From Acutalibacter sp. (GTDB lineage Bacteria; Bacillota; Clostridia; Oscillospirales; Acutalibacteraceae): 12,282 bases of DNA. Positions 8,107-12,282 of this stretch are shown piece after piece (the stretch's first letter is position 1; each line of letters opens with the position of its first letter). Location of the stretch: positions 1 to 12,282 of the forward strand of contig JAAWSH010000020.1 in assembly GCA_022801475.1 (NCBI GenBank). Direction: 5' to 3'. The notes beneath the pieces are model-generated. The model saw only the letters and a program-made list of their open reading frames with translations, ran no database searches and had not been told where the DNA came from. The translations under genes and the position numbers were made by a program.

Positions 8107-9711
8107 TTATCCCTGGCTGAACTCCGACAGCATCAGCCCTGGGTTTTTATCCAGGGCCCAGTTGATGCTCCACTGGTTACTAAACAACAGCAAATACCGC
8201 CCCCGCAGGTCCTGCACCTTCTTGGTGTCTGTGGTCAGGTTCAGTTTTTTCACGGCAGCCTCGTCCAGGTTCTCGTTGTCAATCCAACGGATAAACGAGT
8301 AGGGCAGGGTCTGCATGTGTACCTCTACGTTGTACTCGTTCTCCATCCGGTACTGGAACACATCAAACTGTAGGCTGCCTACCACGCCCACAATGACCTC
8401 TTCCATGCCCGCGCCCAGCTCCTGAAAGATTTGGATGGCCCCCTCCTGGGCAATCTGGTTGGCACCCTTTACAAACTGCTTGCGCTTCATGGTGTCCTTT
8501 TGCCGCACCAGACTGAACAGCTCCGGCGCGAAGGTGGGAATGCCCTGAAAGCGCAGTTTCTTCCCCGGGGCGCAGAGGGTGTCGCCAATGGAGAACACCC
8601 CAGGGTCGAACACGCCGATGATGTCCCCGGCATAGGCCTCTTCGATGATCTCCCGGCTCTGGGCCATCATCTGCTGGGGCTGGGAGAGCTTCATCCGCCG
8701 CCCGCCCTGGACGTGCTCCACCTCCATGCCTTTCTCGAACTTCCCGCTGCATATGCGGATAAAGGCGATGCGGTCCCGGTGGGCCTTGTTCATATTGGCC
8801 TGGATCTTAAAGACAAAGGCCGAAAAGTTGTCCGCGTAAGGGTCAATGGGGTCCCCGGCGGTTTTTCTGGGCAGGGGCGGGGTGGTCAGGCGCAGGAAGT
8901 TTTCCAAAAAGGGCTCTACCCCAAAATTGGTAAGGGCCGAGCCGAAAAATACCGGCGAAAGCTGGCCGTGGCGGACCTTCTCCAGGTCGAACTCATACCC
9001 GGCCCCATCCAGCAGCTCTACGTCGTCCCGCAGGGTATCGTATAGATACGGGCCCACGGCCTCCTTCAGCTCTGGGTCCTCCAGGGTGTAGTCCCGCTCC
9101 TTTACCTCCCGGCGGCCCGCGCCGCTTTCTTCGGGCTCGAACTTCAGCACCCGGTTTTTCTCCCGGTCATACACGCCCTTAAAGTCCACGCCGGAGCCAA
9201 TGGGCCAGTTCATGGGGTAGGTGCCAATGCCCAGCTCCTTTTCTATTTCGTCCAGCAGGTCGTAGGGGCTTTGAGAGTCCCGGTCCATCTTGTTGATAAA
9301 GGTGAAAATGGGGATGTCCCGCATGACGCAGACCTTAAACAGCTTGCGGGTCTGGGCCTCCACGCCCTTGCTGGCGTCGATGACCATAACGGCCGAGTCC
9401 GCCGCCATTAGGGTGCGGTAGGTGTCCTCCGAAAAGTCCTGATGGCCGGGGGTATCCAAAATATTGATGCAGTAGCCGCCGTACTGGAACTGCATCACAG
9501 AGGATGTGACGGAGATGCCCCGCTGCTTTTCGATTTCCATCCAGTCCGAGACCGCGTGGCGGGAGTTCCTCTTTCCTTTGACCATACCGGCCAGGGTGAT
9601 GGCGCCGCCGTAGAGCAGGAACTTTTCGGTGAGGGTGGTTTTGCCCGCGTCGGGGTGGGAGATAATGGCAAAGGTCCGGCGGCGGGTAATTTCAGATTGA
9701 TAATCAGGCAA
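8107..9711 (-). CDS. prfC: Peptide chain release factor 3 (RF3)
   Basis: This 534-residue translational GTPase removes RF1 and RF2 from the ribosome after peptide release. It shows the GTP-binding motifs SHPDAGKTT (residues 18-26), GISVTSSVM (65-73), DTPGH (86-90) and NKMDR (140-144), then the RF3-type domains II and III with VVGSLQFDVFQYRMENEY near residue 450. Length is normal. The start appears to be TTG at 9711: AAAGGA lies nine bases upstream, and the nearby ATG is out of frame and closes after five codons (ATG GCT TAC TTT GCC TGA). The gene has its own promoter and a leader of about 255 nt with an ATG-TAG unit. A weak hairpin (8088-8094 with 8048-8054, minus strand) follows the stop without a good T-run. 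Confidence 0.96.
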   Translation of the reverse strand: MPDYQSEITRRRTFAIISHPDAGKTTLTEKFLLYGGAITLAGMVKGKRNSRHAVSDWMEIEKQRGISVTSSVMQFQYGGYCINILDTPGHQDFSEDTYRTLMAADSAVMVIDASKGVEAQTRKLFKVCVMRDIPIFTFINKMDRDSQSPYDLLDEIEKELGIGTYPMNWPIGSGVDFKGVYDREKNRVLKFEPEESGAGRREVKERDYTLEDPELKEAVGPYLYDTLRDDVELLDGAGYEFDLEKVRHGQLSPVFFGSALTNFGVEPFLENFLRLTTPPLPRKTAGDPIDPYADNFSAFVFKIQANMNKAHRDRIAFIRICSGKFEKGMEVEHVQGGRRMKLSQPQQMMAQSREIIEEAYAGDIIGVFDPGVFSIGDTLCAPGKKLRFQGIPTFAPELFSLVRQKDTMKRKQFVKGANQIAQEGAIQIFQELGAGMEEVIVGVVGSLQFDVFQYRMENEYNVEVHMQTLPYSFIRWIDNENLDEAAVKKLNLTTDTKKVQDLRGRYLLLFSNQWSINWALDKNPGLMLSEFSQG

Positions 9712-10202: not shown

Positions 10203-11177
10203 ATGTGTACATGCGTGGCAATGAAAACCCAGGACGTATATTTTGGCCGTACTATGGACATTGACTACCGGTTTGGAGAGCGTGTGGTGGTTACCCCCCG
10301 GAACTATTCCTTTGCCCTGAAAAACGGCGAGAGCTTTGAGACCTGGTACGCTATGGTGGGCATGGCCTCTGTGATGGATGGCTATCCCCTGTATGCCGAG
10401 GCCACCAACGAAAAGGGGCTGTCCATTGCCGGGCTCAATTTTCCTGGCAACGCCTATTACGGCGAACCTGTGCCCGGCCGGCTGAACCTGACCCCCTATG
10501 AACTTATCCCCTGGGCCATGGGGAACTTCGCCACCATTGCAGAGCTGCGCCGGGAGCTAAAAAACGTTTGGCTGACCAACCAGCCTTTTGCCAAAAATCT
10601 GCCCCTGGCCCAGCTGCACTGGATGATTAGCGACGGAGAACAAAGCCTGGTGGTAGAGCAGACCCGCCAGGGTCTGAGCGTGTACGAAAACCCCATGGGC
10701 GTGCTCACCAACAACCCGGAGTTTCCTTTTCACCAAATGAACCTAAACAGTTATATGAACATCAGCTGCCAGCCGGCTCAAAACCGTTTTTCACGGCTGG
10801 TGGATTTAAAATCCTACGGACAGGGCATGGGGGCCATGGGGCTGCCAGGGGACGACTCTCCTACCTCCCGATTCATCCGAGCCAGTTTTTATAAGCTGAA
10901 TTCCCAGTGCGACGGTACGGACGCAGGGTCCCTTTCTCAAATCTTCCATATTCTGGAGGGAGTTTCTATTGTGCGGGGCTCGGTGGTGGTCAGCGGCAGT
11001 ACCTGCAGCGTGACCACCTATACTTGCTGTGCCAACGCCACCCGGGGGGTTTACTACTATAAAACCTATGCCAATAGCCAGCTGACCGCCGTGCGCTTGA
11101 CAGACGCTAACAAAAGCGCGGAAGCCCTTTCGATATATGAAATCGACGAGACCCCCCAGGTGCGGTATGTAAACTGA
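10203..11177 (+). CDS. bsh: Bile salt hydrolase (choloylglycine hydrolase family)
   Basis: This 324-residue Ntn-hydrolase cleaves the glycine or taurine amide of conjugated bile acids (EC 3.5.1.24). After Met1 removal Cys2 becomes the N-terminal nucleophile. The other catalytic residues match those of the Clostridium perfringens enzyme: Arg16 and Asp19 (FGRTMDID), Asn79 (GLNFPG), Asn170 (LTNNPEF) and Arg223 (SPTSRFIR). LHWMISD and VVEQT further support bile salt hydrolase over penicillin V acylase. The loop before GLPGD reads YGQGMG. No signal peptide is present, so it is cytoplasmic, as usual. ATG at 10203 follows AAAGGA by nine bases. No terminator separates it from the ABC-F promoter that begins ten bases after its stop, so its transcripts probably run into that leader. 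Confidence 0.95.
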   Translation: MCTCVAMKTQDVYFGRTMDIDYRFGERVVVTPRNYSFALKNGESFETWYAMVGMASVMDGYPLYAEATNEKGLSIAGLNFPGNAYYGEPVPGRLNLTPYELIPWAMGNFATIAELRRELKNVWLTNQPFAKNLPLAQLHWMISDGEQSLVVEQTRQGLSVYENPMGVLTNNPEFPFHQMNLNSYMNISCQPAQNRFSRLVDLKSYGQGMGAMGLPGDDSPTSRFIRASFYKLNSQCDGTDAGSLSQIFHILEGVSIVRGSVVVSGSTCSVTTYTCCANATRGVYYYKTYANSQLTAVRLTDANKSAEALSIYEIDETPQVRYVN

Positions 11178-11186
11178 AAAAAGCTC

Positions 11187-11215
11187 TTGACAACTACACG
11201 CAATGCCGCTATAAT
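11187..11215 (+). promoter_or_regulatory. Perfect-consensus sigma-A promoter of the ABC-F gene
   Basis: TTGACA (11187-11192), 17 bases, TATAAT (11210-11215): both boxes and spacing are exact consensus. It begins ten bases after the bile salt hydrolase stop codon. Transcription should start near 11222, some 250 nt before the ABC-F start codon, which suggests that control lies in the leader rather than in promoter strength. Confidence 0.93.
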
Positions 11216-11244
11216 TTCTATAAATTGAATGATGAGGTGAAAAG

Positions 11245-11256
11245 ATGTTGAAGTAA
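11245..11256 (+). CDS. Three-codon leader ORF (Met-Leu-Lys-stop)
   Basis: ATG TTG AAG TAA lies about 23 nt after the predicted transcription start and is preceded by a good Shine-Dalgarno sequence, GAGGTGA (11234-11240). Nothing else in the first 70 nt of the transcript has a comparable ribosome-binding site. In ABC-F antibiotic-resistance genes, very short upstream ORFs serve as drug sensors: a stalled ribosome changes the folding of the following RNA. That role is inferred here from position and context. Confidence 0.55.
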   Translation: MLK

Positions 11257-11299
11257 GCTCAAAGAAAACCACAAAAATTCCACTGCTTTTAGGATTCAT

Positions 11300-11331
11300 C
11301 CCTGAAGGCTGAGTTTTTGCCGGGTTTTTTT
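11300..11331 (+). terminator. Terminator-like hairpin 1 in the ABC-F leader
   Basis: CCC (11300-11302) and GGC (11307-11309), with a four-base bulge between them, pair with GCC (11319-11321) and GGG (11322-11324), followed directly by T7 (11325-11331). The stem is short and bulged, so strength is uncertain. It could end bile salt hydrolase read-through or act as a leader attenuator. Confidence 0.45.
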
Positions 11332-11400
11332 GGGCTGAGGGCCGCCTGCTGGGTGCGGGCTTGGCCTGTGCGCATCTTTTTCTTTTGCCTTTTGGGCCCT

Positions 11401-11430
11401 AGGTCTGTTAAAATTCGACAGCCCTTTTTT
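11401..11430 (+). terminator. Terminator-like hairpin 2 (attenuator candidate) in the ABC-F leader
   Basis: AGG (11401-11403) and CTGT (11405-11408) pair with ACAG (11418-11421) and CCT (11423-11425) around a nine-base loop, with one internal mismatch, followed by a T-run to 11430. AGGGC at 11338-11342 could pair either with GCCCT at 11396-11400 or with GCCCT at 11421-11425, a possible antiterminator competing with this stem. Confidence 0.5.
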
Positions 11431-11473
11431 GTGCGCATACGTCCATCCCCGGCCAGATAGGAGGTATGCGCAT
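11431..11473 (+). promoter_or_regulatory. Hairpin masking the ribosome-binding site of the ABC-F gene
   Basis: TGCGCATAC (11432-11440) is perfectly complementary to GTATGCGCA (11464-11472). After a G/G mismatch, TCC (11442-11444) pairs with GGA (11460-11462), inside the AGGAGG Shine-Dalgarno sequence (11459-11464). The stem therefore covers the ribosome-binding site and reaches the first base of the TTG start. A second copy of TGCGCAT at 11369-11375 could pair with the same right arm. Confidence 0.65.
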
Positions 11474-12282
11474 TGTTACAAGTAAAAGGCCTAACCATTA
11501 CCATGAGGAAGGACTCGCGGGTTCTGCTGCGGGACCTGGACTTTGCCCTGAACCCTGGAGATAAGGTAGCCATCATTGGTGAGGAAGGGGATGGGAAGTC
11601 CACATTACTAAAACTTTTATTCCATGAAACTTTAGTGGAGTCCTACGCCGACTGGGAGGGCTCTATTGCCAAAAAAGGAATGATTTTGGGCTATCTGGCC
11701 CAAGAGGTGTCCCCCCAGGAAGGGGCGCTGTCTGTTTACGAATACTGCTGTGCACAGCCAGGCTTTTTAGAGGCTAATCCTGCCGGGCTGGCCGCGGCCG
11801 GGGCCCCGGTGGGGGTTTCTCTGGAGGATTTTTACGCCCAGCGGCTGGTTTCCAGCCTTTCCGGCGGGGAAAAGGTTAAGCTGCGTATGGCCCTGCTTGG
11901 GCTGCGCCAGCCAGACGCCTACCTGCTGGATGAGCCCAGCAACGACCTAGACGTAGAGACCCTGGAGTGGCTGGAGGACTTTATTATACGCTGCCCCCAG
12001 CCGATGCTGTTCATCTCTCACGACGAGGTGCTGCTGGAAAAAACCGCCAACGCCGTGCTACACCTGGAGCAGCTGCGCCGCAAAACTCTGCCCCGCTGGA
12101 CTCTGGCCCGGATGGGCTACCGCCAGTATGTGGAGGAACGCCTCCAGCGCTTCGGCCGCCAAGAGCAGGCCGCCAAAAAGGAGCGGGAAGAGGACCGCAA
12201 GCGCCAGGAAAAGCTGCGGAAAATTGAGCAGAAAGTGCAGCATCAGCTGGACGCCATCAGCCGCGCCAACCCCGCCGGGGGA
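11473..12282 (+). CDS. ABC-F family ATPase (3' partial), possible ribosome-protection antibiotic resistance factor
   Basis: The first 270 codons of an ABC-F protein are visible and the frame runs off the window. The first ATPase domain is complete: Walker A GEEGDGKST (residues 36-44), LGYLAQE Q-loop, signature LSGGE (129-133), Walker B YLLDEPSNDLD (150-160) and the H-loop ISHDE (181-185). There are no membrane segments. From about residue 225 a highly charged helical stretch rich in Glu, Lys, Gln and Arg starts the inter-domain linker. ABC-F proteins bind the ribosomal E site; some act as translation factors, others displace antibiotics. The subfamily cannot be settled from half a protein, but the attenuator-like leader favours the resistance type. 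TTG at 11473 is preceded by a perfect AGGAGG eight bases upstream; the nearer ATG at 11466 is out of frame. Confidence 0.92.
   Translation, partial: MLQVKGLTITMRKDSRVLLRDLDFALNPGDKVAIIGEEGDGKSTLLKLLFHETLVESYADWEGSIAKKGMILGYLAQEVSPQEGALSVYEYCCAQPGFLEANPAGLAAAGAPVGVSLEDFYAQRLVSSLSGGEKVKLRMALLGLRQPDAYLLDEPSNDLDVETLEWLEDFIIRCPQPMLFISHDEVLLEKTANAVLHLEQLRRKTLPRWTLARMGYRQYVEERLQRFGRQEQAAKKEREEDRKRQEKLRKIEQKVQHQLDAISRANPAGG

Follow-up and report, generated by a model that had tools for sequence, protein, structure and literature searches.

The leader (11187-11472) of the ABC-F gene at the end of contig JAAWSH010000020.1 of Acutalibacter sp. (assembly GCA_022801475.1) is a ribosome-sensing attenuator, a reading to which we assign a probability of roughly 0.8. 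The window analysed here is the whole of that contig (C7), 12,282 nucleotides in length, and it belongs to a fragmented genome (269 contigs, 64% complete). Upstream of the gene lies a three-codon upstream open reading frame (uORF, referred to below also as the mini-ORF), which pairs with a distal segment (the anti-uORF segment); the latter may alternatively pair with sequences of a terminator situated just before the gene. The original prediction, made from the letters of the window, had proposed an ABC-F gene induced by antibiotics through attenuation in its leader. Our analysis gives this proposal partial support: its central idea stands, considerably strengthened, and masking of the Shine-Dalgarno (SD) sequence of the gene is added to it as a further layer.

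Conservation of the mini-ORF and its promoter

All features of the window's leader lie on the + strand. As originally predicted, the leader begins with a sigma-A type promoter of exact consensus (11187-11215; TTGACA at 11187-11192, a 17-nt spacer and TATAAT at 11210-11215; 12/12 matches) and carries an SD-like sequence, GAGGTG (11234-11239), followed by the unit ATG TTG AAG TAA (Met-Leu-Lys; 11245-11256). The promoter is kept across the genus: in the 85 nt preceding the mini-ORF, the best pair of elements reaches 10 or more of 12 matches in 25 leaders out of 27, and the spacer is 17 nt long in 26 of the 27.

From the sets of 27 leaders used throughout, L109 was dropped, as it comes from the window's own species (99%); the row L001, which is the window itself, was dropped too, and the copies of genus species taken from genome contigs (L029-L039 and L045) were left out of both these sets and the set of 69 loci described below. 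An ATG-N6-TAA unit was identified in all 28 genus loci, at positions -174 to -323 relative to the ABC-F gene, and its stop codon is always TAA. The encoded tripeptides are of seven kinds (MLV in 11 leaders, MLK in 5, MRK in 4, MFA in 3, MRL in 2, MHA in 1 and MIV in 1, among 27). When the 27 leaders are aligned over the stretch delimited by the mini-ORF and its distal partner (mean column identity 37%), the ATG, the TAA and the following G are among the invariant columns; codons 2 and 3 are variable and the surroundings are strongly diverged.

A three-codon ATG unit preceded by an SD sequence was detected within 330 nt upstream of the gene in 26 of the 27 leaders (1.05 in dinucleotide shuffles), and a two- or four-codon unit defined in the same way in none of them. 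The single miss, identified from the peptide counts as L113, has its ORF at -323, i.e. at the edge of the scanned region. As a control, leaders of other genes at the same loci were inspected, of which 2 of 83 contain a three-codon unit, both encoding the peptide MRD. A search with an extended motif gave one copy in each of 19 of the 29 genus genomes, always at the ABC-F leader, and the reversed control gave 0; of the ten genomes missed by the pattern, one (G300, 60% complete) is the genus genome without an ABC-F match, and in the remaining nine the context of the ORF does not fit the pattern. Loss of the mini-ORF and stems among orthologues, the check set beforehand, was thus not observed: all 28 loci keep the ORF, and the arms of the stems coevolve (see below).

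It had been suggested that the three-residue peptide ORF acts as the sensor. The tripeptide sequence is not conserved, and the word "sensor" should therefore be taken to mean where the ORF lies and how long it is, more than which residues it encodes. The same variability bears on amino-acid attenuation, in which the mini-ORF would sense the charging of tRNA for Leu, Lys, Val or Arg. A leader ORF placed before a terminator is indeed the classical layout of such systems. However, in the 27 leaders codon 2 specifies Leu, Phe, Ile, His or Arg and codon 3 Val, Lys, Ala or Leu, a run of two codons is too short, and the window has no match to T-box or any other Rfam family at gathering score, which leaves this explanation highly improbable.

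Alternative folds of the leader

In the predicted repressed fold of the window, the SD sequence and start codon of the mini-ORF (11234-11247; the ATG is invariant in the genus alignment) form a 5' arm that pairs with 11372-11385, and the bases at and after the stop codon pair with 11326-11336. The resulting anti-antiterminator (11239-11381), similar to SL-1 of vmlR (see below), is composed of the helices 11239-11248/11372-11381 and 11256-11266/11326-11336, holds codons 2 and 3 of the mini-ORF in an internal loop, and encloses an inner hairpin (11272-11319; 11272-11280 with 11311-11319 and 11285-11293 with 11301-11309). The region 11222-11395 folds at -65.7 kcal/mol, versus -49.2 kcal/mol in dinucleotide shuffles (z = -3.9). 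One of two terminators had originally been placed at 11300-11331. T-runs are present at 11325-11331 and 11425-11430, but in the fold the first of these pairs with AGCTCAAAGAA (11256-11266) and serves as 3' arm in a larger hairpin, part of the anti-antiterminator. Compared with the other aligned genus leaders, the anti-antiterminator of the window contains about 35 extra nt (11337-11371) with a second copy of GGGCT, as if by local duplication.

Of the 24 nt of the mini-ORF region, 16 or more are paired with the distal segment in each of the 27 leaders (mean 19.4, versus 7.2 with the leader body shuffled); 20 leaders exceed 95% of their own shuffles and 13 exceed all 60. The base pair following TAAG is C-G in 16 leaders, G-C in 4, T-A in 4, T-G in 2 and G-T in 1, so that both sides change, with the reservation that these counts come from each leader's own best fold and are biased towards pairing. 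Cognate duplexes are more stable than non-cognate ones, both for the ORF with the segment (-20.6 vs -15.1 kcal/mol, 27 leaders, p 0.00005) and for the segment with the terminator flank (-16.7 vs -13.8 kcal/mol, 20 leaders, p 0.0002), although the permutation tests ignore the relatedness of the species and the p-values overstate independence. The segments in this comparison were taken from a sequence alignment whose input stretches ended 8 nt past the fold-defined segment, and are therefore partly fold-dependent.

Instead of the ORF region, the anti-uORF segment can bind the terminator flank, which mimics that region, together with the terminator's 5' arm. For the window, folding of the RNA to 11413 with a ribosome footprint on the mini-ORF predicts an antiterminator (11332-11406) that consists of 11332-11336 paired with 11402-11406 and 11338-11343 paired with 11395-11400. 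In nascent RNA, i.e. RNA cut before the 3' arm of the terminator, placing a ribosome footprint on the ORF raises the expected antiterminator pairs from a mean of 0.05 to 12.0 (5.5 with the flank shuffled). All 20 leaders with a strong terminator gain more than 2 pairs, and in 15 of these 20 the switch is equalled by at most 10% of flank shuffles. When the footprint was slid to +16 or beyond, 15 of the 20 leaders stayed below 5 pairs whatever the offset, the exceptions being L119, L123, L126, L127 and L131. The nascent-RNA test was designed after the negative result obtained at equilibrium (see below), and it used hand-set segments for the window, L121 and L131. An earlier antiterminator test, in which the segments were over-long and in some cases ran across multiloops, had given a weak signal (mean z -0.76, 27 leaders); with tighter segments the mean z was -1.82, with 15 of 20 leaders below -1 and L131, which has a 7-nt segment, at +0.40.

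A NusG-type TTNTTT motif located after the anti-uORF segment (15 of 27 leaders, 3.7 expected) was set aside, as it is confounded by the T-rich arm.

Termination and SD masking within the genus

A strong hairpin with a T-tract precedes the gene in 20 of the 27 leaders. Nineteen of these were identified by the terminator scan, at -20 to -32 kcal/mol, and in 17 of the 19 the hairpin is separated from the gene by 20 to 40 nt. The scan gave a match in 22 of 27 leaders (none in L009, L010, L110, L117 and L120); for the window and L123 it matched another hairpin, and the gene-proximal one was named by hand, that of L123 being counted among the 20 strong terminators. In L113 and L121 the terminator precedes the gene by 132 and 85 nt, respectively, and additional sequence intervenes.

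The hairpin with a T-run originally predicted at 11401-11430 of the window does exist (stem 11401-11409/11417-11425, T-run 11425-11430), but it is a weak intrinsic terminator (-4.9 kcal/mol), with strong counterparts in the 20 leaders mentioned above. Neither it nor 11300-11331 is listed by the scan of the window, which reports 11285-11309 and 11353-11371 within the leader, the former overlapping the first of the originally predicted sites, and one more site outside. Of the "two terminator-like stems" there thus remain one weak terminator and one stem that belongs to the anti-antiterminator, and a hairpin masking the SD sequence of the gene had been overlooked.

This SD-masking hairpin (11431-11473) is formed by GTGCGCATAC (11431-11440) and GTATGCGCAT (11464-11473), together with TCC paired to GGA. 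Four of the six bases of the SD sequence AGGAGG (11459-11464) are paired, along with the bases up to the first of the start codon of the ABC-F gene, which starts with TTG and is cut off by the end of the contig (11473-12282, first 270 codons). A TTG start is found in six of the 27 leaders, those of the window, L009, L010, L114, L117 and L120, and likewise in L030 and L031, which come from isolates. In the six leaders the terminator is weak (-4.9 kcal/mol in the window, -11.4 kcal/mol in L114) or was not found by the scan, and all six share the repeat TGCGCATA/TATGCGCA over the stretch from the SD sequence to the start codon. This stretch is 9 to 24% unpaired in the TTG-start leaders versus 16 to 57% in the other 21, with overlapping ranges and with the SD position mis-set for L009 and L121 in the computation. 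SD masking in the repressed state is therefore a property of the six TTG-start leaders and is not general in the genus. The simplest reading is that regulation has shifted within the genus from termination towards SD masking, the window retaining traces of both.

As a variant of the attenuator reading, control in the TTG-start species may be translational alone, with the SD hairpin as the switch and the weak terminator as a remnant. The SD-masking repeat common to all six leaders, the lack of any hairpin with a T-tract in the scans of four of them and the low stability of the window's terminator agree with this variant; the T6 tract kept after the window's hairpin, the L114 hairpin with its T-tract, and the fact that the proposed unmasking pairing occurs in three of the six leaders only argue against it. 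We consider it a serious candidate for these species, if with somewhat less than even odds.

Comparison with known attenuators and proposed mechanism

The leader joins a known kind of uORF attenuator, the architecture of which has been demonstrated by experiment for vmlR of B. subtilis and cplR of C. difficile (PMC9226507, PMC10201436). The vmlR leader (SL-1 to SL-4) has a three-codon uORF (MIN) in a bulge of the anti-antiterminator SL-1, an antiterminator overlapping the terminator and then an SD-sequestering hairpin (PMC9226507). The same order of elements is predicted for our leader, with a terminator that is weak in the window and strong in 20 of the 27 leaders. It differs from vmlR in its host, in its peptides (MLK, MLV, MRK and others instead of MIN), in an ABC-F protein outside the named subfamilies according to the models tested, and in SD masking, which here is due to a perfect 10-bp repeat and confined to the TTG-start leaders; in addition, the present architecture was computed from sequence. 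The uORF variants MIN, MDN, MDK and MRK are each described as supporting lincomycin induction of vmlR (PMC9226507), and MRK also occurs among the leaders analysed here.

In cplR, a uORF of the type MR[I/M] lies in a 5' hairpin, the terminator is placed at the start of the gene, and transcription and translation attenuation are combined (PMC10201436). The leaders analysed here resemble it in the three-codon uORF inside a 5' hairpin, in the terminator that most of them have before the gene and in the predicted combination of two layers, but the SD sequence of cplR is described as lying inside the terminator stem (PMC10201436), whereas terminator and SD hairpin are separate here. The Listeria gene lmo0919 (vgaL) encodes an ABC-F protein and is induced by lincomycin (PMC6310831); a figure of PMC10201436 shows the uORF and anti-SD elements of this gene in alignment with those of cplR. 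VgaL belongs to ARE1, in contrast to our protein, which falls outside the Vga-family reference in the tree described below. Three- or four-codon uORFs have also been reported before the ARE-ABCF genes of VmlR2 (MK[L/Q]) and LsaA (MAGN) (PMC10201436), with a consensus other than the MR-x and, chiefly in Lachnospiraceae, M-x-x-R of the related loci found here. Among the papers listed by literature searches, of which a single one named the genus (20 of its 148 papers shown), none concerns an Acutalibacter ABC-F leader.

By analogy with these systems, the leader would work as follows. The strong promoter would produce leader RNA constantly. In the absence of a drug, ribosomes would begin and finish the three-codon ORF rapidly, the ORF region would fold onto the anti-uORF segment, and the terminator before the gene would form; in the species of the window, the SD sequence of the ABC-F gene would be masked as well. 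A drug freezing the ribosome at or just past initiation would leave the 5' arm covered by the stalled ribosome, and the anti-uORF segment, thus freed, could capture the terminator flank and 5' arm during transcription, giving full-length mRNA. In the TTG-start species the SD sequence may be unmasked by pairing of the freed segment. Drug-induced stalling at or just past initiation requires no particular peptide, in agreement with an ORF that is fixed in length and free in its residues, and it is the way in which the vmlR and cplR leaders are induced. The short ORF, combined with a linker of 172 residues in the protein, suggests that the natural stall is caused by a drug of the pleuromutilin, lincosamide or streptogramin A kind. 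We regard the drug-sensing and resistance part of this scheme as more likely than not, with less assurance than the attenuator itself.

Several observations weigh against this reading, to which the relatedness of the species mentioned above must be added. In the finished RNA at equilibrium, a single one of 22 leaders shows a drop of more than 0.2 in terminator probability when the footprint is added, which implies that the switch would have to act during transcription, under kinetic control. The nascent-RNA switch of L111, L113, L119, L121 and L130 is matched by at least 23% of flank shuffles and is no better than chance, and that of L121 (4.3 pairs) is below all of its flank shuffles. RNAalifold applied to a plain MAFFT alignment recovers the inner hairpin only, missing the outer pairing because the anti-uORF columns are out of register. 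As for the terminator, that of the window itself is weak, and the 3 sites found by the scan in 901 bases are not above chance (1.3 in shuffles, sd 1.5). The SD hairpin of the TTG-start leaders stays closed at equilibrium, and pairing of the freed segment with the anti-SD arm is limited to half of these leaders. Finally, the identity of the vmlR uORF is described as crucial for efficient induction (PMC10201436), which fits poorly with the free residues observed here.

Some of these points might be taken to mean that the leader is nothing but a strong promoter followed by untranslated sequence with incidental stems. In favour of this view, short ORFs and hairpins occur widely, the terminator-like sites of the region do not exceed chance numbers, and two equilibrium tests gave no switching. 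Such an origin is contradicted by the conservation of the mini-ORF, the coevolution of the arms, the nascent-RNA switch and the confinement of the motif to the ABC-F leader, and we consider it very improbable.

Related loci beyond the genus

The analysis was extended to 69 further loci beyond the genus, which include near-duplicates (e.g. L043/L044) and some of uncertain start codon. A three- or four-codon unit with an ATG or GTG start is present at -80 to -320 in 46 of them, a hairpin of -10 kcal/mol or lower with a T-tract occurs in the last 150 nt in 40 (12.1 in shuffles), and 35 contain both the unit and the terminator. With ATG starts only, there are 22 three-codon units (3.95 expected) and 18 four-codon units (3.70 expected). 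The three-codon peptides include MRK (8), MRN (4) and MRI (2). Ten of the 18 four-codon units end in Arg (MSGR twice, MSSR, MIGR, MIIR, MTIR, MYQR, MILR, MRSR and MTDR), nine of them in records titled Lachnospiraceae, Roseburia or Bilifractor. The M-x-x-R uORFs (e.g. L043, L047, L051, L054, L055, L064, L072, L096 and L101) are chiefly from Lachnospiraceae, and the Acutalibacter group has three codons.

Taken further, the single anti-uORF segment could be viewed as an exchangeable hub, one sensor having been rewired within the genus from the terminator to SD masking with the tripeptide drifting, and the ORF having four codons (M-x-x-R) in related lineages. We offer this idea tentatively, as one that may well not hold. 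If it is true, the length and position of the ORF would be what is sensed, the residues would tune which drug acts as the trigger, and the arrangement would span an uncharacterised ABC-F clade over gut Bacillota.

The ABC-F protein

In the near-identical locus L029 the gene is 510 codons long. The ABC-F protein was found in 28 of the 29 genus genomes, including all 20 of those at least 90% complete, and has a patchy distribution outside it (at E 1e-40, found in 21 out of 300 genomes sampled from the family). It has two ABC domains and an extended linker of 168-175 residues between the SHD motif of the first nucleotide-binding domain (NBD1) and the Walker A motif of the second (NBD2). The corresponding length is 172-175 residues in Vga, Lsa and Msr and 145-146 in housekeeping proteins. 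The distance from Walker A to the first LSGG is 88-98 residues where found, versus 126-131 in PoxtA and housekeeping proteins, which indicates the lack of a long NBD1 insert. In 28 of 29 clade members the Walker B/D-loop of NBD2 reads DEP[T/S]RN[F/L/V]SP in place of DEPTNHLD.

Among the 25 best of 182 NCBIfam matches, the L029 protein scored below every resistance cut-off (bits/cut-off: NF000355 263/380, Msr 192/680, Vga 182/725, Sal 174/725, OptrA 152/1450, Lsa 129/750), and the CplR model NF043038 did not accept it either (152.5 bits, cut-off 780). In the tree, the clade of the window's protein lies outside OptrA, PoxtA, the Vga-family protein, Msr(A) and Lsa(E), of which Msr(A) and Lsa(E) are on long branches and of unsure placement; L003-L005, from the window's own genome, are ABC exporters by eye rather than ABC-F proteins, and serve as a far outgroup only. 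The original assignment to an unplaced subfamily therefore stands relative to these five resistance proteins, the housekeeping proteins and the listed NCBIfam cut-offs, and does not extend to VmlR and CplR, which are outside the tree. In structural alignments the identity is 25-27% to VmlR2 and 23-24% to VmlR, neither of them a member of the tree. The clade is not covered by the curated models tested.

The architecture of the protein, in analogy to Vga, Lsa and Msr, suggests that it may confer resistance. Alternatively, the same attenuator may serve a general translation factor, induced by any stress affecting initiation or early elongation, an explanation compatible with ribosome sensing as such. 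The linker, which resembles that of the resistance proteins and not that of housekeeping ones, the lack of the long NBD1 insert found in PoxtA and housekeeping proteins, and the patchy distribution beyond the genus, unlike that of a housekeeping factor, all argue against a general factor, which we regard as rather unlikely.

Neighbouring genes and related genomes

In the genome collection, the nearest named neighbour is Oscillospiraceae bacterium B59_59_AM_H, with a protein identity of 99%; when named genera alone are considered, Acutalibacter isolates come nearest, at 66-70%. Directly upstream of the ABC-F promoter lies a gene for choloylglycine hydrolase (bile salt hydrolase) on the + strand (10203-11177; NCBIfam NF038245, 400.8 bits, cut-off 350). 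Among the loci searched, genes of this kind near the ABC-F gene are confined to the species of the window (L029, L109), which indicates that the leader travels with the ABC-F gene and not with this neighbour. Peptide chain release factor 3 is encoded two genes away from the ABC-F gene on the opposite strand (8107-9711, -; 758 bits, cut-off 473); it is also present within a few kb of the ABC-F gene in L030 and L085, possibly by chance. On the 3' side of the ABC-F gene, the near-identical genome carries an ORF of 365 aa (L029 4856-5953, +), which we take to resemble FIST-domain sensor proteins.

Significance of the leader

What a three-codon uORF senses is a question raised in the CplR report (PMC10201436). 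The leader series described here, with seven tripeptides, three versus four codons, and a terminator versus SD masking, is well suited to this question. More generally, many gut Clostridia appear to have a drug-sensing leader before a gene of an ABC-F clade that none of the listed curated resistance models accepts. If this is true, these commensals would possess an inducible, intrinsic protection of the ribosome, possibly missed by resistome tools.

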